The notes beneath the pieces were generated by a model. It saw nothing but the letters and a program-made list of their open reading frames with translations. It was not told the origin of the DNA and made no database searches. Positions 38,143-56,049 of a stretch of DNA of 64,000 nt are shown here, piece by piece; position 1 is the stretch's first letter; every line of letters starts with the position of its first letter. Origin of the DNA: an uncultured SAR86 cluster bacterium (GTDB lineage Bacteria > Pseudomonadota > Gammaproteobacteria > Magnimaribacterales > AG-339-G14); the NCBI GenBank assembly GCA_902562135.1, contig CACESE010000004.1, positions 1 to 64,000 on the forward strand, written 5' to 3'. The translations under genes and the position numbers were made by a program.

Positions 38143-38841
38143 TTAATCCCAAGCTTTAATTGGAGTAACTATCCCTCGTCTAACAATGGATCTATTTCTT
38201 CTCACCGAATTTTGGAATTCAGCAAAGTCGGCATTGTCCATATTCAATAGGTCTATAGTTGCCATTAAATTAGCCATATCGGTTCCGCCAATAAAAGCAA
38301 AGTGAGTGTACTCATCGCCTGCAACCACTCTTTCGACTCCGAAAGAGCTCGTCAACTGGCCGTTGGCCACCGCTGCATCAGTGAACTTCTTGTAAGCTTC
38401 TATATAAGAGGCCTCGTTTCTAACATTGATTTCAAATACAGCAAAGGCGGTGTCTTGAGTCCAGTCTCCAGCTTCGTAAACTGATTTCGCTAAAGTTTGT
38501 TCAGTAGGTACTGAAACCGCAGCAAGCTCAGTTAAGAAAGTTGCGTATTCAGGACAAGTGCTTAAGTTAGCAAATGTATCATTAAGCGCTTGCGCCCCTT
38601 GATAGGTGACAACAAATGTATGCGTTTGGGGCTCGTGTCCATTGAAGGCTTCGCCCATCAACGCAACCGAAAATGGAGCAGTTTGTCCACATTCAGATGC
38701 CATAAATTTATCCATCGCAGCGACTACCGCGGGAGGATTGCTAACAGTCATTCCAAAATAAGCATAGTAAAGATCATTGCCGTGATCGTCAGCAAAAGTA
38801 AAGCCGCTGAAAGCTAATAAAATTATTAATATTTTTTTCAT
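38143..38841 (-). CDS. Secreted two-domain protein (predicted tandem dimeric alpha/beta-barrel-like halves), paralog array member 1
   Basis: Signal peptide; halves each begin with YYAYFGMTVSNPPAVV / AFAVFEINVRNEASYIEAYKKF and end with F..F......R/V pattern. Confidence 0.65.
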   Translation of the reverse strand: MKKILIILLAFSGFTFADDHGNDLYYAYFGMTVSNPPAVVAAMDKFMASECGQTAPFSVALMGEAFNGHEPQTHTFVVTYQGAQALNDTFANLSTCPEYATFLTELAAVSVPTEQTLAKSVYEAGDWTQDTAFAVFEINVRNEASYIEAYKKFTDAAVANGQLTSSFGVERVVAGDEYTHFAFIGGTDMANLMATIDLLNMDNADFAEFQNSVRRNRSIVRRGIVTPIKAWD

Positions 38842-38859
38842 TGTGTTTTCCTTTAAAGA

Positions 38860-39561
38860 TTAATCAGCTGTGTAAATTTGCTCACAAACTTCGTAAGCAT
38901 CGTTAGCGACAGAGTCTTGTAATGCCACAAATGCATCATAAGCTCTGCCCCATTCAGCCCCTGCAAAATACTCGTCTACAAGTTTTCCAACAGCAGCTCC
39001 GTCTCTAGAGATTCCTCTAACCATCAACGTACCTACTTCATTAGGCCCACTTCCGATTGATTGCAGAATGCCAAGTTTAAAGTCGTGACCTGCAGCTTGA
39101 ATAGCCGACTCCAATGCAGTACCTGCAGCTAGATAAGCTGGCACATTTTCTGGAGAAACAACAACTCGAGTTGCTCTTTCGTACCCAGGATCTAGTTCAA
39201 ATCCTTTGATCGGTTTCCAATTAGCGCTATAAACAAGATCTCTTAAAGACTCGAGTCTTTTTGGCACATTATATGGGTCATATCCTTCTGATCCAGAGAG
39301 TTGTGCTTCAAAACTTGTGAATGCACTCCACACAAACATTTCACCAGGATAATTATGCCCTGAAGCGGTCACACATACACCGGCAGCAGTTGAACCTTGT
39401 GGTCCAAAAATTGCCTCAGCATTTGCTCTTAAAAACTCTGTGTACTCCGCAGGATTTTTTGCTTTCACATGAAATGAAGTGAAACTTCCCTCAGGTGCTT
39501 GTTGGGCAATCGCGCCAAAAGAAATGCCTAAGGTAGTGATTAAGATTAATATTTTTTTCAT
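38860..39561 (-). CDS. Secreted two-domain protein, paralog array member 2
   Basis: MKKILILITTLGISFGAIAQ signal; FTSFHVKAKNPAEYTEFLRANAEA...ATRVVVSPENVPAYLAAGTALESAIQAAG. Confidence 0.65.
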   Translation of the reverse strand: MKKILILITTLGISFGAIAQQAPEGSFTSFHVKAKNPAEYTEFLRANAEAIFGPQGSTAAGVCVTASGHNYPGEMFVWSAFTSFEAQLSGSEGYDPYNVPKRLESLRDLVYSANWKPIKGFELDPGYERATRVVVSPENVPAYLAAGTALESAIQAAGHDFKLGILQSIGSGPNEVGTLMVRGISRDGAAVGKLVDEYFAGAEWGRAYDAFVALQDSVANDAYEVCEQIYTAD

Positions 39562-39575
39562 ACTGCCTCCTTTCA

Positions 39576-40262
39576 TTATCTTACATAGACGACTTCACAG
39601 GTCATCATAAAACCTCTTTTGAGTTTTCTTAATTTAGGGAACTTCTCGCTTGCATCTATGTTCCAAGCTTCGTTTCTAGCATCAAGAAATTCTCCTAACC
39701 TAACAGATGTAGGCGCTTGAATGACTGCCATGACTTGGCCTGTGTAATCGCCAGTATTGATTAAAAACGCACCAAGCGTTACATCTTCGAAACCGTTAGC
39801 TTGAGCAGTTGCTTGATATGCTGCAATCTCTTGAATGTATCTTTGCGGATTCTTGGTGTAGACATTTATGTTGTAATTTGCGTAAGTCATGCCTACTTCA
39901 ACCCCTTCAGCTACTGGCGTTAACGCCGAGTAATGATCTATTGAAGAAACTGTTCTTTTGTCAGCAATTTTTGCTATTTCAGCAGCAACTTCAGGATCAT
40001 AATAATTTCCACTCAGTGAGTCTGCATGACTGTCATACAAACTGTAAAAATACATGTCGCCAAACTCCTCTGAACCACCACTAGGCAGGCAGACGCCAGC
40101 GCTAGCAGTATTAGAAGGAGGATTTGTAATTGGAGCGCTTGCTCTAGCCCACTCCATGTATCCCATTGGGTCAGCAGTATTTATTGTAAAAACATTCATA
40201 GCTGGAGCTGCAAATGCAGAACTGACTAAAAATGTAGATATAATTAATAGAATTTTTTTCAT
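39576..40262 (-). CDS. Secreted two-domain protein, paralog array member 3
   Basis: MKKILLIISTFLVSSAFA signal; MNVFTINTADPMGYMEWARA...ANYNINVYTKNPQRYIQEIAAYQATAQANG. Confidence 0.65.
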   Translation of the reverse strand: MKKILLIISTFLVSSAFAAPAMNVFTINTADPMGYMEWARASAPITNPPSNTASAGVCLPSGGSEEFGDMYFYSLYDSHADSLSGNYYDPEVAAEIAKIADKRTVSSIDHYSALTPVAEGVEVGMTYANYNINVYTKNPQRYIQEIAAYQATAQANGFEDVTLGAFLINTGDYTGQVMAVIQAPTSVRLGEFLDARNEAWNIDASEKFPKLRKLKRGFMMTCEVVYVR

Positions 40263-40348
40263 TTTTGTTCTCTCCTTAAAAAAATAAAAACGGACATCCA
40301 TTATCCACTAAAATAAGAAAAATTAAATGACTTACTTACATAGTTTCA

Positions 40349-40810: not shown

Positions 40811-42223
40811 ATGTCTAATTTAGATAACATTAACTTTAAAAACTCCTTTGGCGCTCTTTCTAATGAGTTTTATACCAAACAGAATTGGAGTCCTCTGCCC
40901 AAGGCGAAGTTAGTGAATTTTAACTATGACCTGGCAGAAGAATTGGGTTTGAAGAACGTTGACCCAAAAGCTTTAGTAAAAATTTTTAACGGTGAGATTT
41001 CTCTTGAAAATACCGATCCGCTCGCCATGGTCTATGCAGGACATCAATTTGGAAATTGGGTGCCACAATTAGGTGATGGTCGGGGAATATTGTTTGGACA
41101 AATAGAAACATCCAGCGGGTTAAAGGATTTACATATCAAAGGAGCAGGTAAAACACCTTATTCAAGATTTGGAGATGGTCGAGCCGTTCTCCGATCATCC
41201 ATTAGAGAGTATTTATGTGGCGAAGCAATGCACGGTTTAAAAATACCGTCGTCAAGATCATTAATAATATTTACTGGAGAAGAACCCGTCTTCCGAGAAA
41301 CTACTGAGCCAGGCGCCATGATAGTGAGATCGGCAAGTACGCACGTACGTTTTGGAAATTTTGAATACTTATGTCACAACGACAAAAAAGAACTTCTGCC
41401 TGAATTAATGACTCATGTAATTGAGGAATATTTTCCGGAATATAACGAACTAGCAAATAAATTTGAGTTATTTTTTGAATCGGTGGTGCGTAAAACTGCG
41501 GAACTTATAGCACATTGGCAAACTGTTGGCTTTGCTCACGGGGTTATGAATACCGATAATATGTCTATTCTGGGAGAAACCTTTGATTTTGGCCCTTTTG
41601 GTTTCTTGGAAAACTACCAACCAGATTACATTTGCAATCATTCAGATTATCAAGGGCGTTATGCTTTTAATAATCAACCAAACATTGGTCTTTGGAACTG
41701 CCAAGCTTTAGCAGCAGCCTTATCACCAATTATTGAAGAGACTGCTTTGAAAAAAGCTTTAGAAAGTTATCAAATCTATTTTTACAATCATTTCATTCAA
41801 TTATTTAGAAAAAAAATGGGTCTATTGAAAAAAGATCCCAAGGATTTCGAGCTCATTGAAGAAATTTTGGATTGGCTGATGAAAGAAAAAATTGATTACA
41901 CAAATTTCTTCAGAAATTTTAGTGATTTTATCCATGGCGATAATTTGTTTAGTTGGAAAGAAAAATTTCTTAATAGATTAGAGTTAGAAAAAATCTCTCG
42001 AAATCAACATGAAGATATAGTGAAGGCTAATAATCCAAAATTTATACTTAGAAATTATCTGGCCCAAGTCGCCATTGAAAAAGCAGAAAAAGATGACTTT
42101 TCAGAAGTAGATAATCTTTTAAAAATTTTAAAAGATCCTTTTTCTGAGCATGATGATTTTGAAGATTACGCTAGTGAATCACCTGAGTGGGGGAAAAATT
42201 TAGAGATTTCCTGCTCCTCTTAA
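40811..42223 (+). CDS. selO: SelO/YdiU pseudokinase-fold protein AMPylase
   Basis: YAGHQFGNWVPQLGDGRGILFG, HIKGAGKTPYSRFGDGRAVLRSSIREYLCGEAMHGL, FAHGVMNTDNMSILGETFDFGPFGF. Confidence 0.95.
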   Translation: MSNLDNINFKNSFGALSNEFYTKQNWSPLPKAKLVNFNYDLAEELGLKNVDPKALVKIFNGEISLENTDPLAMVYAGHQFGNWVPQLGDGRGILFGQIETSSGLKDLHIKGAGKTPYSRFGDGRAVLRSSIREYLCGEAMHGLKIPSSRSLIIFTGEEPVFRETTEPGAMIVRSASTHVRFGNFEYLCHNDKKELLPELMTHVIEEYFPEYNELANKFELFFESVVRKTAELIAHWQTVGFAHGVMNTDNMSILGETFDFGPFGFLENYQPDYICNHSDYQGRYAFNNQPNIGLWNCQALAAALSPIIEETALKKALESYQIYFYNHFIQLFRKKMGLLKKDPKDFELIEEILDWLMKEKIDYTNFFRNFSDFIHGDNLFSWKEKFLNRLELEKISRNQHEDIVKANNPKFILRNYLAQVAIEKAEKDDFSEVDNLLKILKDPFSEHDDFEDYASESPEWGKNLEISCSS

Positions 42224-42908: not shown

Positions 42909-43916
42909 ATGAAACAGATACAACTATCTAAGCCTGGAGGCCTTGAGAATCTTAAACTTACCGATACTGAAAACCCTTCGCTAAAAGATAATGAAGTTCT
43001 TTTAAAAGTCCACGCAAGCAGTTTAAATTATCACGACCTTATGGTTGCTCTAGGCTTGATCCCAACAGAGGATAAAAGAGTGCCATTGTCCGACGCGGCT
43101 GGTGAAATTTTAGAAGTAGGTAAAGACGTTTCTAAGTGGACTGTTGGAGACAAAGTTATGAGTATGTGCTTTCCAAACTGGGTCAGTGGTCCGCCAAAAT
43201 ATGATTTATTAAGTTTTATTGGCGACAATCAAGACGGCTATGCCACAGAGCTTATCTCGATACCAGAATCAGCGATCACCAAAATTCCTAATAATTTAAA
43301 TTTTAAGGAGGCTGCTACTTTGCCATGTGCTGGGCTCACTGCATGGAGGGCTTTGGTAGATGAAGGTAGATTAAAGTCTGGAGAAACTGTTTTAGTTCAA
43401 GGCACGGGTGGAGTATCGGTGTTTGCTTTACAACTTGCTAAAACTTTTGGGGCTACTGTAATTGCCACTTCATCAAGTGAGGAGAAACTGGAAAAATTAA
43501 AATCACTGGGAGCAGATCATTTAATTAATTACAAAGCTCATCCTGAATGGGGAAAAGAGGTTTTAAAAATAACCAATAATGAGGGCGTGGACCACGTTGT
43601 TGAAGTGGGAGGCGCAGGAACCTTTAGTGAATCTGTTCGTTGCACAAAGCTTGCAGGCCATATCGCATTGATAGGTGTTCTGAGCGGACCTTCGGTTAGC
43701 GAGATTATTTTACCAAGAATATTTTTGAAGCAAATTAGATTGAGTGGAATTGCGATGGCTAACCAAGATTCTCAAATTGCCATGATCGACTATTTAGAGA
43801 AAAATGAAATCAAACCTGAAATTAGCGACAGTTTTGATCTTAAGGATTTAGGTGCTGCCTTTCAACATCAAATAGATAATAAACATTTCGGCAAAATATC
43901 AATTGATATAGGCTAA
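42909..43916 (+). CDS. Zinc-type alcohol dehydrogenase / quinone oxidoreductase family (MDR)
   Basis: VLVQGTGGVSVFALQLAKTFGATVIATSSSEEKLEKLKSLGADHLINY. Confidence 0.9.
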   Translation: MKQIQLSKPGGLENLKLTDTENPSLKDNEVLLKVHASSLNYHDLMVALGLIPTEDKRVPLSDAAGEILEVGKDVSKWTVGDKVMSMCFPNWVSGPPKYDLLSFIGDNQDGYATELISIPESAITKIPNNLNFKEAATLPCAGLTAWRALVDEGRLKSGETVLVQGTGGVSVFALQLAKTFGATVIATSSSEEKLEKLKSLGADHLINYKAHPEWGKEVLKITNNEGVDHVVEVGGAGTFSESVRCTKLAGHIALIGVLSGPSVSEIILPRIFLKQIRLSGIAMANQDSQIAMIDYLEKNEIKPEISDSFDLKDLGAAFQHQIDNKHFGKISIDIG

Positions 43917-43977
43917 TCCCTATGACAGTATTAGTCGCAAAGAAATTGCTACAATAATCGAGGTTTTGGGGGGTGAT

Positions 43978-46023
43978 ATGAAAAAACTTATTCTGTTAGT
44001 TGCTGTTATTTTTTTAGCGAGTTGTTCTGATGAATCATTGGACGTCGTTATCACGCCTGTCGATAAGGTCAAAGATCCAAATTCGGACTTTAATGAATTG
44101 AGAAACGCCTATTTTGGGGATACGCACGTCCATACAAAACATTCTTTTGATGCTTATCTCTTTGGTACTACTGGTTCTCCAGCTGATGCTTATAGGTATG
44201 CTAGAGGTGAAACCGTGAAACATCCTGCAGGCTTTGATATGAAACTGGTTGAGCCACTTGATTTTTATATGGTCTCAGATCACGGTTTTTTTATGGGCAT
44301 GATGGAAGCTTATGCTGATACTTCTACAGATATCTCTAACGCTCCAGGTGCGGAAATATTTCATAACATGAACGCGCCAGAAAATTTAACTATCGAAAAT
44401 GGTGCTACTAGGTTAAATACTTTTGCCTCAACGATAGCAAATTTTTTCTTAAATCCGAGATCTTATTTTGACCCTGAACTTTGGCGAGCTGTTTTAACAC
44501 AAAACCTAGCAAGAGGCTTAGAAATTTATGATCATGAAGTTCACCTATCTGCTTGGGCAGATGTCGTAAAAGCAGCGAATGATGCTTATGATCCAGGAAA
44601 CTTCACTACTTTTATAGGTTATGAATTCACTACTTCTACTGACGTCGCAAATGAAAACCTACACAGAAATGTGATGTTCAAATCATCAAATGCTCCTAAA
44701 AGACCTTACACTAGAATTGATTCCATTAATCCAGAAGATCTTTGGAACTGGATGGATAAACTTCGAGAACAAGGTGTAGATAGTATTGCTTTTCCACACA
44801 ATAGTAATGGTTCCAATGGACAAATGTTTGAAATGGAAACTTTCCATGGCGAACCTTTGTCGAAGGAATATGCTGCCTTGAGAATGAGAAACGAGCCCAT
44901 AGTAGAAATGACTCAGGTCAAAGGTACTTCTGATACTCACCCATTATTGTCACCTAATGATGAATGGGCTGATTTCGAGATCATGGAGGCAAGAATAGGT
45001 AGTATCCCTCCAGCTTTTAGTTTTCCTGCGGGAGGTTATGTTAGAGATGCTTACATTAGAGGTTTAATGTCGAATCAATTTGGTACGGGTAATCCCTACA
45101 AATTTGGTTTGATCGGAGCAAGTGACACGCATGTACTTGGTGGCGGTTTTAGAGAAGATAATTATTGGTCAAAAATTGGCTTAGTTGATGCAGATCCAAG
45201 AGCAAGAGGCAGTGTCCCCGTTGCTGAAGAAGATCGTAATCTCGTACCTAACAGAGGCGGAGTTTCTTTCGCAGAATATGAACAAGGTGACTATGTCATT
45301 GGTGGTTTAGAAAATTGGGGCGCATCTGGTCTCGCTGGAGCTTGGGCAGAAGAAAATACAAGAGAATCTATTTTTAATGCTTTTAGAAGAAAAGAAACAT
45401 TTGCTACTTCAGGGCCAAGAATTTTAGTTAGATTTTTTGGCGGATATGATTTGGACGAATTAACATTTGAAAACGAAAATATAATAAAAGATGCTTATGA
45501 TTCAGGTGTGCCAATGGGAGGAGATATTTTTGAGGAAGAAACCGATAAAGCTCCTAGCTTTTTAATCTGGGCGCAAAGAGACGTCAATGGCGCGCCTTTA
45601 CAAAGAATACAGGTAATTAAAGGGTCAATTAGTAGAGCAGATTCCCGTCCAACTGAGAAAGTTTATGACGTGGCTTGTTCGGATGGTCTTGAAGTAGATT
45701 CTCAAACTAACCGATGTCCGGATAATGGCGCCCGTGTGGATATAGAAACTTGTGCAATATCAAAAAATGTTGGCGCAGCAGAACTGAAAACGATTTGGAC
45801 CGATCCAGATTTTGATAAAACTGATAGCGCTTTTTATTACGTAAGAGTTTTAGAAAATCCAACGTGTCGATGGTCTACTTGGGATGCAATTCGAGCTGGC
45901 TTTAAGCCTAGAGAAGATTTGCACGACACGATTCAAGACCGAGCATGGAGTTCGCCGATTTGGTACACGCCAAATGATGCTGAAAATCCAACGCCAATTA
46001 GATTAAATTCAGAAAGGCTTTAA
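43978..46023 (+). CDS. DUF3604 family exported lipoprotein with PHP-like metal-binding motifs
   Basis: MKKLILLVAVIFLASCSDES lipobox; FGDTHVHTKHSFDAYL, MVSDHGFFMGMMEA, AFPHNSNGSNGQMF, GASDTHVLGGGF. Confidence 0.9.
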   Translation: MKKLILLVAVIFLASCSDESLDVVITPVDKVKDPNSDFNELRNAYFGDTHVHTKHSFDAYLFGTTGSPADAYRYARGETVKHPAGFDMKLVEPLDFYMVSDHGFFMGMMEAYADTSTDISNAPGAEIFHNMNAPENLTIENGATRLNTFASTIANFFLNPRSYFDPELWRAVLTQNLARGLEIYDHEVHLSAWADVVKAANDAYDPGNFTTFIGYEFTTSTDVANENLHRNVMFKSSNAPKRPYTRIDSINPEDLWNWMDKLREQGVDSIAFPHNSNGSNGQMFEMETFHGEPLSKEYAALRMRNEPIVEMTQVKGTSDTHPLLSPNDEWADFEIMEARIGSIPPAFSFPAGGYVRDAYIRGLMSNQFGTGNPYKFGLIGASDTHVLGGGFREDNYWSKIGLVDADPRARGSVPVAEEDRNLVPNRGGVSFAEYEQGDYVIGGLENWGASGLAGAWAEENTRESIFNAFRRKETFATSGPRILVRFFGGYDLDELTFENENIIKDAYDSGVPMGGDIFEEETDKAPSFLIWAQRDVNGAPLQRIQVIKGSISRADSRPTEKVYDVACSDGLEVDSQTNRCPDNGARVDIETCAISKNVGAAELKTIWTDPDFDKTDSAFYYVRVLENPTCRWSTWDAIRAGFKPREDLHDTIQDRAWSSPIWYTPNDAENPTPIRLNSERL

Positions 46024-46037
46024 TTCATTCCAGAAAA

Positions 46038-46847
46038 ATGGTTCGTAAAGTAGCTATTTTTTTTACAATAGGATTAATCATCTTGGCCTTGGATTTAGTC
46101 TATTCAACTCTTAAAGATGAAAGATTAATTTATATTTCTGAAGAAGAAGTTTATAGCCTTTTAAATACTTGGGCTTTACAAGTAGGAAGAAATCCAAACC
46201 CTGATGAAGCAAAAGCTGTAATAGACAATTTAATTGAAGAAGAAATTCTCTATAGAGAAGCTTTAAGGTTGGGCCTGGATGCAAATGATCAAATAATCAA
46301 AAGAAGATTGGCACAAAAGTTAATGTTCTTAAAACAAGAATCTAGAGGAGAAAAACTTAGGGACGAAGAAGTTTTAAATTTCTACAATGAGAATAAAGAA
46401 AAATACTTAATTGCAAGGCAGTTTGATTTCACTCACCTTTTTTTTGCAAAGGATAGCAATGGCTCCGCCAGAGCAGTAGAAGCAGAGCGTCTTTTAAAAA
46501 AATCTCAAAAAATTCAAAGCGATGTTTTCTTTCTGGGTAAAAATTTTACAAATAAAAGCGTTAAAGAGTTGAAAAAAGATTTCGGAGCCCTCTTTGCCCA
46601 AGCTTTTACAAATCTTGAAATAAATAAATGGTCAGAGCCAATTGAATCTACTTACGGAAGCCACTTGGTGAAAATTATTGGCATACAACCTGAGAGAATG
46701 CCTAGCCTTGAAGAAATAAAACCACGTGTGTTGATCGATCTTGACCTTCAAAAGAAAGACTCAGCTTTGTCCGAATACCTTAATAATTTAAAAGACGAAT
46801 ACGAAATCATAATCAGCAGAAGCTTGGAACAAACCTATAATGAATAA
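46038..46847 (+). CDS. Membrane-anchored parvulin-like peptidylprolyl isomerase (PpiC/SurA type)
   Basis: N-terminal TM; VIDNLIEEEILYREALRLGLD...; FDFTHLFFAKD...WSEPIESTYGSHLVKIIGIQPERMPSLEEIKPRV. Confidence 0.88.
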   Translation: MVRKVAIFFTIGLIILALDLVYSTLKDERLIYISEEEVYSLLNTWALQVGRNPNPDEAKAVIDNLIEEEILYREALRLGLDANDQIIKRRLAQKLMFLKQESRGEKLRDEEVLNFYNENKEKYLIARQFDFTHLFFAKDSNGSARAVEAERLLKKSQKIQSDVFFLGKNFTNKSVKELKKDFGALFAQAFTNLEINKWSEPIESTYGSHLVKIIGIQPERMPSLEEIKPRVLIDLDLQKKDSALSEYLNNLKDEYEIIISRSLEQTYNE

Positions 46848-47784
46848 ATATAGTTTTTATCTTTTCACTTTATTATTTTTTTTACCCTTAAAAGCACACG
46901 AATTTAATCCTGCTCATTTAATTATTGAGGAGAGTGAAGATTTCAAATATGACATTGTTTGGATGTATCCAATCAGGAACCTTGGCCCGGTAGATTTATC
47001 TCTGCCAAAAGATTGTGAATCCAATTCAGTTGAAGTTTTTCAAGAAAGTAAATATTTGTCTGAAAAAATATCCATGCAATGTGAAAGTACTATTAAAGGA
47101 AAGCCCATTTTTATTAATGGTTTATCGATCTTAAATGACGCTTTAGTAACAGTTAAATTTATTGATGGGGAAAGATTTGAAGGATTAGTAAGCGTAAAAG
47201 AGTCTAAATTAGTAATACCAGAAGAAACCCAGGTATTTCCAACCGGTTACTTTATCTTGGGTATAGAACATTTAATCGGTGGTCCGGATCATTTGGTTTT
47301 TGTTTTTGGATTATTATTCATTGTTTTTGGTTGGCGTAATTTAATAAAAACAATCACCGCCTTCACCTTAGCTCACAGTCTTACTCTAGGTCTATCAGTA
47401 ATGGGATTTGTCAGCTTACCGTCTATAACAATTGAGGCTTTAATAGCACTAACTATTATTTATCTTGCACTTGAAATAAACGAAGATAAAAATTCTAACC
47501 AAACGCCTTGGCTAATGGCCTTTGGTTTTGGCTTGCTTCATGGTTTTGGTTTTGCAGGTGCTCTTAGTGAGATTGGCATTGCGAATGAACAATTGTTGCT
47601 CTCTTTGCTTTTTTTTAATATTGGAATTGAAATGGGTCAACTAATTATGATTCCAATTTTTCTAACCATTATTTGGTTTCTTACCAAAATTAAAATTAAT
47701 TTTTCAGTCACGAAATTATCTTCCTATGCCATTGGTGGATTAGGAAGCTTTTGGCTGATTGAAAGAGTGTTAGGAATTTTTTAA
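46840..47784 (+). CDS. HupE/UreJ family membrane protein (putative metal permease)
   Basis: FPTGYFILGIEHLIGGPDHLVFVFGLLFIVFGWRNLIKTITAFTLAHSLTLGLSVMG; GFGLLHGFGFAGALSEIG. Confidence 0.9.
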   Translation: MNKYSFYLFTLLFFLPLKAHEFNPAHLIIEESEDFKYDIVWMYPIRNLGPVDLSLPKDCESNSVEVFQESKYLSEKISMQCESTIKGKPIFINGLSILNDALVTVKFIDGERFEGLVSVKESKLVIPEETQVFPTGYFILGIEHLIGGPDHLVFVFGLLFIVFGWRNLIKTITAFTLAHSLTLGLSVMGFVSLPSITIEALIALTIIYLALEINEDKNSNQTPWLMAFGFGLLHGFGFAGALSEIGIANEQLLLSLLFFNIGIEMGQLIMIPIFLTIIWFLTKIKINFSVTKLSSYAIGGLGSFWLIERVLGIF

Positions 47785-47788
47785 AAAA

Positions 47789-47817
47789 AAGGCTGCTTGA
47801 AAGCAGCCTTTTTTTAT
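47789..47817. terminator. Intrinsic bidirectional terminator
   Basis: AAGGCTGCTT-GA-AAGCAGCCTTTTTTT with A-tract upstream. Confidence 0.92.
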
Positions 47818-47821
47818 TTCG

Positions 47822-48631
47822 CTAAGTTAAAGGTATCTCACCTGAGTTGTAATCAACAGGTGCTTCACAAGTCAAAACTTCGTTAAAAGCGTCTTGAATA
47901 TCAGATCCTGTTTCAGCAAAGTAAGAATTTCCAGCCTCTCTAAGCTCGGCATTTTGATTGAAGTTGCCCCAAAATAAATCGACCTCCTCATCTTCGTAAT
48001 CAGGTGCCAATATTACGTAACCGTATGGAGCATAAATAGAACTATCACTAGCTTCTATCCATTCTTCAAATTGATCTATGACCGCTATCAACTCACTAGC
48101 TCCTTGTCCTTCGTTATAAAGACACTGTTGATAATCAGATGAAAAAGAAGTCAAATCAAATTCACCTAAAGAATTACCAGCTCTTCTTACATACGCGTCA
48201 AAAGAAAAAGTGTCTGCTTTAGAACCACAAGCAAGAATGTCTGCTGTGGATTCTGCCCACTCAGTTGTTTTGTCATAACCTTCCCAGGTCTCCCAACCTG
48301 CCTCTGCGTCAGCTTTCGAATTCCATACTAGCTGCCAAAAGCCATCGCCTGGTGCGTCTTCAGGTTTATCTCCTTCAAAGGTGATACCGTAAGCTGCCAC
48401 AAGAGTTGAGTTAGTTTCAACCAACAAGTCTTGCCATTCGGGAAGCATATCGCTGTTAAAATTTTCTACCGACCAATTTTCGCCGTAAGTACATGGAACA
48501 TACTCCATGTAAAATTTCTGGGGATATTCTTCGGATCCAAGATCTGCATAAGTCATTTCTGGTTCAGAACTGCATGCAGAAAAAATGGCTAGAGTCGTGA
48601 TCAAAGTTAAAATATATAACTTATTTTTCAT
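47822..48631 (-). CDS. Lipoprotein of unknown function, two-repeat architecture, related in layout to the 38-40 kb array
   Basis: LAIFSACSSEPEM lipobox; EYVPCTYGENWSVENFNSDMLPEWQDLLVE... / YQQCLYNEGQGASELIAVIDQFEEWIEAS internal duplication. Confidence 0.7.
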   Translation of the reverse strand: MKNKLYILTLITTLAIFSACSSEPEMTYADLGSEEYPQKFYMEYVPCTYGENWSVENFNSDMLPEWQDLLVETNSTLVAAYGITFEGDKPEDAPGDGFWQLVWNSKADAEAGWETWEGYDKTTEWAESTADILACGSKADTFSFDAYVRRAGNSLGEFDLTSFSSDYQQCLYNEGQGASELIAVIDQFEEWIEASDSSIYAPYGYVILAPDYEDEEVDLFWGNFNQNAELREAGNSYFAETGSDIQDAFNEVLTCEAPVDYNSGEIPLT

Positions 48632-55201: not shown

Positions 55202-55621
55202 TTAATTTTCTTTCGGAGCTGGCGCAGTCCACATTCCCCCGATCAAGCCGATAAGAATTGCTACGTAAAAGACTATTCCTAAAGGATCTGATGGGATCAT
55301 AGATCCATTTACATAACCTGTGGCTCCAACGTTATCAACGAAATTTTGCATTCCGCCTGTAAGTTCGAGGCCCGATTCTGAAGCTGCATAAGCCCAATTA
55401 TTTACTGCAGAAGTAACATTCCCATAAGTATTTGCATTGAAAGCTACAACACATAAAGAAATTATAGAATGCATAACTTTCCCAAAAGTATTAACTCCAT
55501 ACAAATTCGCATTAGTGACGCCTCTGAACATCATCCATAAAAGAAGGATATTTCCGATAAAAAAGATGGCGTTCATTTGTAAAAATCCAATATATGATGA
55601 ATTTAAAGCCGCTAGTTCCAT
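55202..55621 (-). CDS. Small ~3-TM membrane protein, paralog B of a tandem pair
   Basis: YIGFLQMNAIFFIGNILLLWMMFRGVTNANLYG...MQNFVDNVGATGYVNGSMIPSDPLGIVFYVAILIGLIGGMW. Confidence 0.75.
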   Translation of the reverse strand: MELAALNSSYIGFLQMNAIFFIGNILLLWMMFRGVTNANLYGVNTFGKVMHSIISLCVVAFNANTYGNVTSAVNNWAYAASESGLELTGGMQNFVDNVGATGYVNGSMIPSDPLGIVFYVAILIGLIGGMWTAPAPKEN

Positions 55622-55632
55622 TTTTTCTTCTC

Positions 55633-56049
55633 CTAATTATTTTTAGGGCCCCAAATAAGGCCTAAAATCATTAATAAAACGATAATCAAAAATGCCATAC
55701 CTAAAGGCGTTGGCATTGCCGATCCATCTATATTCCCTACATAATCTATGAAGCCTTGAGCATTTTCTGGATTGCTCATATTGTCAATTCCAAAATCTGT
55801 GATGGCTTCCGAAGCGTTTCGCCAAGGAACAGTCGCTAAAGTAAATTGAATCCAAGAACCTGCAACGACACATAAACCAAATCCTGTGGATAAAAGTTTA
55901 GTGACAATATTTGATTCTGAATTTTCTCTTGTCATATTAGCTACTCTTAAGGCTAGCCAAATTGCAATTATTGTTCCAATAAATGACATTGCGCTGATTA
56001 AGTAACCCATTTGGAAAAAACTCCATATAAGTTGTTCGGTTTCACTCAT
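55633..56049 (-). CDS. Small ~3-TM membrane protein, paralog A of a tandem pair
   Basis: SFFQMGYLISAMSFIGTIIAIWLALRVANMTREN...AQGFIDYVGNIDGSAMPTPLGMAFLIIVLLMILGLIWGP. Confidence 0.75.
   Translation of the reverse strand: MSETEQLIWSFFQMGYLISAMSFIGTIIAIWLALRVANMTRENSESNIVTKLLSTGFGLCVVAGSWIQFTLATVPWRNASEAITDFGIDNMSNPENAQGFIDYVGNIDGSAMPTPLGMAFLIIVLLMILGLIWGPKNN

Follow-up and report, generated by a model that had tools for sequence, protein, structure and literature searches.

The stretch of DNA analysed here (the window) comprises the first 64,000 nucleotides of contig CACESE010000004.1 (assembly GCA_902562135.1) from an uncultured SAR86 cluster bacterium. It contains three consecutive genes encoding a DUF3604 protein, a PpiC foldase and a HupE/UreJ-type membrane protein, hereafter the trio (Table 1). 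The layout given in a preliminary description of this DNA holds in full: the three genes lie on the + strand, DUF3604 and PpiC are separated by 14 nt, PpiC and HupE overlap by 8 nt, and a strong terminator closes the unit. The terminator hairpin has a dG of -19 kcal/mol and a z of -4.9, with 0 of 200 shuffles equally stable; a simple consensus scanner did not pick it up. An alternative in-frame start for DUF3604 is the TTG at 43966. The source genome, of about 1 Mb and 76% complete, has three DUF3604 genes, and PpiC and HupE adjoin only the copy in the window. Our analysis suggests that these genes make up a small, so far undescribed set of functions by which a single family of exported enzymes is folded and loaded with metal.

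Table 1 Coordinates of the trio, its terminator and the adjacent genes in the window
Feature	Coordinates	Strand	Length or structure
Zinc-type dehydrogenase/quinone oxidoreductase gene, co-directional, upstream of the trio	42909-43916	+	
DUF3604 gene (PF12228), predicted exported lipoprotein	43978-46023	+	681 aa
PpiC gene (PF13145), parvulin-type peptidylprolyl isomerase	46038-46847	+	269 aa
HupE/UreJ_2 gene (PF13795), membrane protein	46840-47784	+	314 aa
Rho-independent terminator hairpin, symmetric, A-tract/T-tract	47784-47815	.	perfect 14-bp stem
Lipoprotein gene convergent with the trio, without Pfam match	47822-48631		

The DUF3604 protein matches PF12228 along positions 2-591 of the 591-position profile (727.9 bits, cut-off 20.4, E=1e-218). 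Its lipobox, LASC, occupies residues 13-16 and is followed by a serine. The sequence motifs originally read as resembling PHP-type metal sites are indeed present, namely GDTHVHTKHSFD, SDHGFF, PHNSNG and ASDTH. In an alignment of 66 sequences, H50, H52, D101, H102, E216, H229, H274, D383 and H385 are invariant and D48 is almost invariant, with the metal-ligand motifs HxH, [ST]DH, E..H, PH and DxH occurring in that order. The AlphaFold model is confident (pLDDT 91.7) and places the invariant ligand residues on or beside successive beta strands, as a PHP barrel would predict.

We compared DUF3604 with the CehA/McbA proteins (NF038032; carbaryl hydrolases) and PHP enzymes. When weak columns are allowed, GDxHxH, [ST]DH, PHxxxG, SDTH and RxETFATSGPR are collinear; relaxed hhalign runs with four CehA/McbA proteins recovered the blocks GDxHxH, SDH, PHN, SDTH and RxETFATSGPR at a weak score, and hhalign gave a probability of 74-88% over motifs I-II. 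DUF3604 differs in its large insertions and long C-terminal extension, and no common substrate is known. The NF038032 model itself scored DUF3604 below threshold (12.8 bits vs a cut-off of 80), and neither phmmer nor profile searching gave DUF3604 a credible match in the PDB. These alignments are consistent with a predicted PHP/CehA-McbA-like metallohydrolase that is remotely related to the described ones.

Almost all linked DUF3604 copies (66/67) carry an export signal or anchor before the domain, the lipobox being replaced by an N-terminal helix in some SAR86 families. Together with the invariant His/Asp/Glu motifs, this supports the initial proposal of an exported enzyme with PHP-like metal motifs. 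The phosphoester substrate proposed at the same time found no support: the only relatives detected, all of them remote, are CehA/McbA-type metallohydrolases, and the neighbouring genes point to no consistent substrate. In Pfam tallies of 72 and 95 proteins flanking DUF3604 loci, the families were scattered (acyl-CoA, amidohydrolase, metallo-beta-lactamase, sulfatase, P450 and GST), and no consistent pathway or substrate emerged. We therefore drop the phosphoester and claim no substrate for DUF3604.

The second protein matches PF13145 with 59.6 bits (cut-off 27, E=7e-16) and is anchored in the membrane by hydrophobic residues 5-23 at its N-terminus. Profile searches matched H. pylori HP_0175, SurA and PrsA, and the PpiC of the window keeps the catalytic histidines (THLFF, YGSHLV).

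The third protein, HupE, matches PF13795 (149 bits, E=1e-43). It consists of a signal peptide, a putative beta-sandwich ectodomain with conserved Cys59 and Cys81 (residues 25-125 are predicted to be all-beta) and a membrane domain with the motifs HX5DH (144-151), FTxAHS and HGxGFA. The predicted mature N-terminus is His20 (AH(20)E after the predicted signal peptide), a residue invariant in 39 trio-type sequences, and rhizobial HupE proteins share the start HE(I/V/F)RPA. The first view of HupE as a metal handler is supported. HupE of Rhizobium leguminosarum, the Ni2+ facilitator of a hydrogenase cluster, belongs to the same superfamily and has the same NiCoT-like HX5DH motif. The trio differs from it in having no hydrogenase or urease nearby, and the trio-type HupE form a separate, PpiC-associated clade. 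The absence of hydrogenase and urease, already remarked on for the window, extends to the neighbourhoods read.

A similar architecture is found in the Ang-1-HupE/UreJ-2 'anglerase' proteins, which combine a PF13795 membrane domain with a secreted beta-sandwich ectodomain exposing an N-terminal histidine after signal cleavage (PDB 9GCE). Ang-1 binds Cu and Ni through His1, in a mono-histidine brace, and the Kd of RbAng-1a is 74 nM for Cu and 220 nM for Ni (PMC12537917). Foldseek matched the HupE model to the Ang-1 crystal structure 9GCE (probability 0.93, E 0.042), a weak likeness in fold that favours a related metal-binding role. The ectodomain of the trio HupE is shorter, at ~105 aa, contains two conserved Cys, and no similarity to these proteins could be detected in its sequence. 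The gene neighbours also differ: those of Ang-1 are DUF4198, indigoidine-synthase and PfkB, with PpiC and DUF3604 unmentioned (PMC12537917).

We located DUF3604, HupE and PpiC independently in 61 genomes of the SAR86 order and then read the loci. Both DUF3604 and HupE occur in 53 genomes, and neither occurs in 7 (Fisher p=1.8e-8, not corrected for phylogeny). The sole mismatch is G002, which has DUF3604 without HupE on a contig that ends right after PpiC. The two genes also change together inside genera g7 and g6. For the seven genomes lacking both, the PpiC-family matches listed are frames of ~414-640 aa, which are SurA-/PpiD-like sizes. The contiguous order DUF3604-PpiC-HupE is found in four families (f1 g1, g4; f2 g5, g12; f3 g6, g9, g10; f4 g7). 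Variants include an amidase inserted between DUF3604 and PpiC (f1 g2), an acyl-CoA dehydrogenase and a biotin-dependent carboxylase at the same place (f2 g8), and a PpiC-HupE pair located away from DUF3604 (f1 g3). L045 and L046 show PpiC-HupE with DUF3604 elsewhere in the genome. Distance correlations among the three proteins are 0.82-0.95; they include no correction for species phylogeny, and we do not count them as evidence.

Two further features of SAR86 genomes were observed. Family f2 (G037, G040, G043, G046, G049, G055, G058) has 8-13 DUF3604 match stretches per 1.3-1.8 Mb genome, a marked expansion for streamlined genomes in which several stretches possibly belong to one gene. A second PpiC-HupE pair, with a HupE of ~370-410 aa that contains an insertion, occurs at L056, L058, L059, L064, L067 and L068. 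The second pair of L058 lies away from DUF3604, near GNAT, aldo/keto reductase and valS-pepA genes, and a GNAT domain is found inside the PpiC frame of the second pair at L056.

The trio had been said to recur in marine gammaproteobacteria. This is borne out, and its range is far wider, extending to other Gammaproteobacteria, an alphaproteobacterial metagenome-assembled genome (MAG) and rhizobial plasmids. From a scan of GTDB genomes we took the best 80 DUF3604 loci, 30 of which have PpiC and HupE within 3.5 kb. Twelve of these 30 lie outside the SAR86-like group (L102, the alphaproteobacterial MAG, and L107, L109, L120, L121, L124, L128, L131, L140, L141, L148, L151). The order is PpiC-HupE-DUF3604 at L107, and HupE-PpiC is divergent from DUF3604 at L140. 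Pairs are found as well: DUF3604-PpiC without adjacent HupE at L088, and DUF3604-HupE without adjacent PpiC at L143. In a 3-Mb genome, chance would place ~0.4% of DUF3604/HupE pairs less than 6 kb apart. Random neighbourhoods, named beforehand as an outcome that would refute the proposal, were not what the loci showed.

Because this collection was fetched by DUF3604, it is uninformative on HupE elsewhere. The HupE-side control consisted of 185 gammaproteobacterial genomes, with DUF3604 in 18 and HupE in 55. HupE is present in 14 of the 18 genomes with DUF3604 vs 41 of the 167 without (p=1e-5). All 8 loci in which a recovered HupE lies close to DUF3604 were read, along with 31 more picked from the best HupE matches. 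PpiC flanks HupE at 7/8 loci by DUF3604 vs 0/29 others with HupE recovered (p=8e-7), a result that supports PpiC as a partner of the exported enzyme. Rearrangement with the linkage kept is also seen at L152 and L156, and L157 has DUF3604-HupE without adjacent PpiC. One genome of this set has a single 333-aa open frame (G070:C2:46141-46476, L216) in which the lipobox/HxH N-terminus of DUF3604 is fused to the C-terminus of HupE; it resembles what an in-frame deletion would leave of a DUF3604-(PpiC)-HupE locus.

The PpiC-associated members of a maximum-likelihood tree of 67 HupE proteins fall into clade A (32 rows, support 100/99) and clade B (7 rows, support 99/96), and the three remaining clades (28 rows) have no PpiC. 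Clade A holds the SAR86 trio proteins. Clade B joins the HupE of the second SAR86 pair to gammaproteobacterial L158 and L160, at which PpiC-HupE is divergent from a C-type DUF3604; some branches of this clade are long and their placement is uncertain. Outside SAR86, each PpiC-associated clade is paired with its own DUF3604 subtype. Within SAR86 the pairing is not strict, since the C-type DUF3604 is not adjacent to pair B and g1 and g4 have the C-type without HupE-B.

Searching with the window protein by tblastn, we found relatives on 78 plasmids, chiefly of Rhizobium and Sinorhizobium. We read ten annotated plasmid loci. In nine, every one of them from these two genera, a 'peptidylprolyl isomerase' and a 'HupE/UreJ family protein' stand beside DUF3604; the tenth, on a Salipiger plasmid, does not show this arrangement. 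One plasmid locus is ordered PpiC-HupE-hypothetical-DUF3604 and another has three HupE genes. L220, on plasmid accessoryA of Sinorhizobium meliloti USDA1021, has two DUF3604 genes with PpiC and HupE, and L225 is from Rhizobium leguminosarum WSM1325. The flanks include conjugation genes, caspase-like genes (common to L219 and L226), cyd genes and glpD; as they differ from locus to locus, the module is portable. Linkage kept despite changed gene order and unrelated flanks supports the original view of the trio as one module. The genes, their export signals and conserved motifs, their co-localisation and co-loss and the co-specialised HupE clades are established. As a separate observation, Rhizobium plasmid trios can carry two or three HupE/UreJ genes, some of ~200-205 aa (L217 10123-12364; L225 8950-10701).

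We lean towards the trio being a dedicated folding and metal-loading module for one exported metalloenzyme family. DUF3604, whose export signal is a lipobox or an N-terminal helix, would cross the inner membrane unfolded, and the membrane-anchored, parvulin-type PpiC would assist its folding as it emerges. HupE would capture or deliver a transition metal, its ectodomain offering the N-terminal histidine and its membrane domain acting as a NiCoT-like permease. As the end product, DUF3604 would be a hydrolase anchored in the membrane, its metals bound in a multinuclear site of the PHP kind. The hand-over of metal from HupE to DUF3604, the action of PpiC on DUF3604 and the hydrolase activity of DUF3604 are steps that we infer.

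Metal loading would thereby be coupled to folding at the membrane, much as for the Mn exoenzymes of Bacillus. The TerC proteins of B. subtilis, MeeF and MeeY, supply exoenzymes with metal and are co-purified with PrsA and SecDF (PMC10550928). The likeness is that of an integral membrane metal handler working with a parvulin-family foldase to serve exported metalloenzymes such as LtaS while they are translocated or afterwards (PMC10550928). The systems differ in that TerC is of another transporter family (the trio membrane protein is PF13795), handles Mn enzymes and is general rather than dedicated. We know of no TerC gene in an operon with its client enzyme, whereas in the Gram-negative trio client, foldase and transporter travel as one locus. 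The trio is analogous to TerC-type metalation at most. A bolder version, which we put forward tentatively and think rather doubtful, is a self-contained, horizontally mobile Gram-negative system in which the His1-bearing HupE and the parvulin form a co-translocational metal-insertion complex dedicated to one family of exported metallohydrolases. In that case the metal might be Ni, Co or Cu, an unusual choice for a PHP-like enzyme, and HupE would not import nickel but work outward or serve as a metallochaperone in the periplasm.

Several results weigh against a dedicated maturation module. A Foldseek search of the PDB with the DUF3604 model returned no PHP structure among the best 50 matches, and its matches cover the C-terminal beta-sandwich alone (look-alikes Kir, UNC119). 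For HupE, phmmer and profile searches of the PDB gave no credible match and the ectodomain had no detectable sequence match by profile search; the Foldseek match of its model to 9GCE is weak (E 0.042). The first of the parvulin active-site histidines of PpiC is Gln or absent in several trio members, and L107 and the B clade have lost both. Because these histidines are missing in some members, PpiC may act as a holdase rather than an isomerase. Four gammaproteobacteria (G063, G069, G090, G157) have DUF3604 without a detected HupE. Finally, unlinked DUF3604 paralogs are exported as well (52/54), so the module is not required beside every DUF3604 copy; PpiC-HupE may serve unlinked copies in trans. 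The rule that DUF3604 is linked only if exported was rejected on the same count.

Characterised HupE proteins import Ni into the cytoplasm, where it has no obvious use for a periplasmic enzyme. Cytoplasmic import is the core of the main rival, a nutrient-scavenging cassette, which we judge unlikely. Here HupE would bring in a scarce metal (Ni, Co or Cu) that other enzymes use in the cytoplasm. DUF3604, folded by PpiC, would hydrolyse a substrate that is dissolved or belongs to the envelope and that perhaps carries metal or sets it free, and a shared condition of need would explain the clustering. Known HupE/UreJ proteins are metal importers, the anglerase study proposes metal capture for uptake by Ang-1-HupE/UreJ-2 permeases (PMC12537917), and L088 keeps PpiC-DUF3604 without HupE. 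However, the trio-type HupE is a distinct clade that is specific to genomes with DUF3604 and lost with it. SAR86 genomes without DUF3604 have no HupE, which would be odd for general metal nutrition, and the neighbourhoods read showed neither urease nor hydrogenase genes.

We find it less probable still that PpiC-HupE is a general envelope helper pair for which DUF3604 is one client among several, the linkage reflecting a common client. The pairs without adjacent DUF3604 (L045, L046 and the second SAR86 pairs) and the amidase or acyl-CoA enzymes interposed in some SAR86 genomes would fit such a role. Nevertheless, the genomes with detached PpiC-HupE all encode DUF3604 elsewhere, and the clade-B pairs outside SAR86 (L158, L160) adjoin C-type DUF3604. 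HupE is missing from the SAR86 genomes without DUF3604, and PpiC from all 29 other HupE loci. A neutral or hitch-hiking operon, in which inheritance and plasmid spread would keep functionally uncoupled genes side by side, is strongly disfavoured: much SAR86 synteny is vertical and plasmid modules can travel together, but rearranged orders with linkage kept, scrambled flanks, co-loss, co-specialised clades and pairwise retention all speak against it.

At the 5′ side of the trio, the upstream dehydrogenase gene stops 61 nt before DUF3604 and may be on the same transcript. It is outside the conserved module, because a 335-337 aa gene is found upstream only at L038, L039, L043 and L044. A promoter scan at this side gave nothing above chance, and Rfam gave no riboswitch or structured RNA match upstream of the trio. 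At the 3′ side, the terminator hairpin is symmetric and may be bidirectional, also serving the convergent gene ending at 47822. An anti-phage defence role was considered and rejected, with no PADLOC match.

The window holds other features. Near the trio, 40811-42223 encodes a SelO-like protein, 470 aa by appearance, whose frame ends in ...NLEISCSS; one SelO family member also turned up in the tally of proteins flanking other DUF3604 loci. The stretch 38143-40301 (-) encodes, one after another, three exported proteins of ~235 aa, two without a Pfam match and one with a sub-threshold match to DUF6854, and similarity among the three is marginal at best. At 55202-56049 (-), two consecutive hydrophobic proteins of 138-139 aa without confident Pfam match adjoin apparent SCO1-like and heme O synthase-like genes.

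Each of the three families is already named; new is the trio as a candidate system that folds and metalates an exoenzyme, one in which the transporter is of another kind and the client is its own. Our search of the open-access literature found nothing describing DUF3604 function or the DUF3604-PpiC-HupE trio. DUF3604 is an exported enzyme family that is almost unstudied, its name occurring in one of 5.39 million open-access papers. The trio bears on an open question, how exported metalloenzymes come by the correct metal once they have left the buffered cytosol, for which TerC in Bacillus is, to our knowledge, the main worked example. The trio ties DUF3604 to a transporter and a foldase, and gives HupE/UreJ-2 a candidate client. 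SAR86 is among the most abundant bacterial lineages of the surface ocean. As the trio is widespread in SAR86 and present in genetically tractable rhizobia, the proposed module is directly testable.

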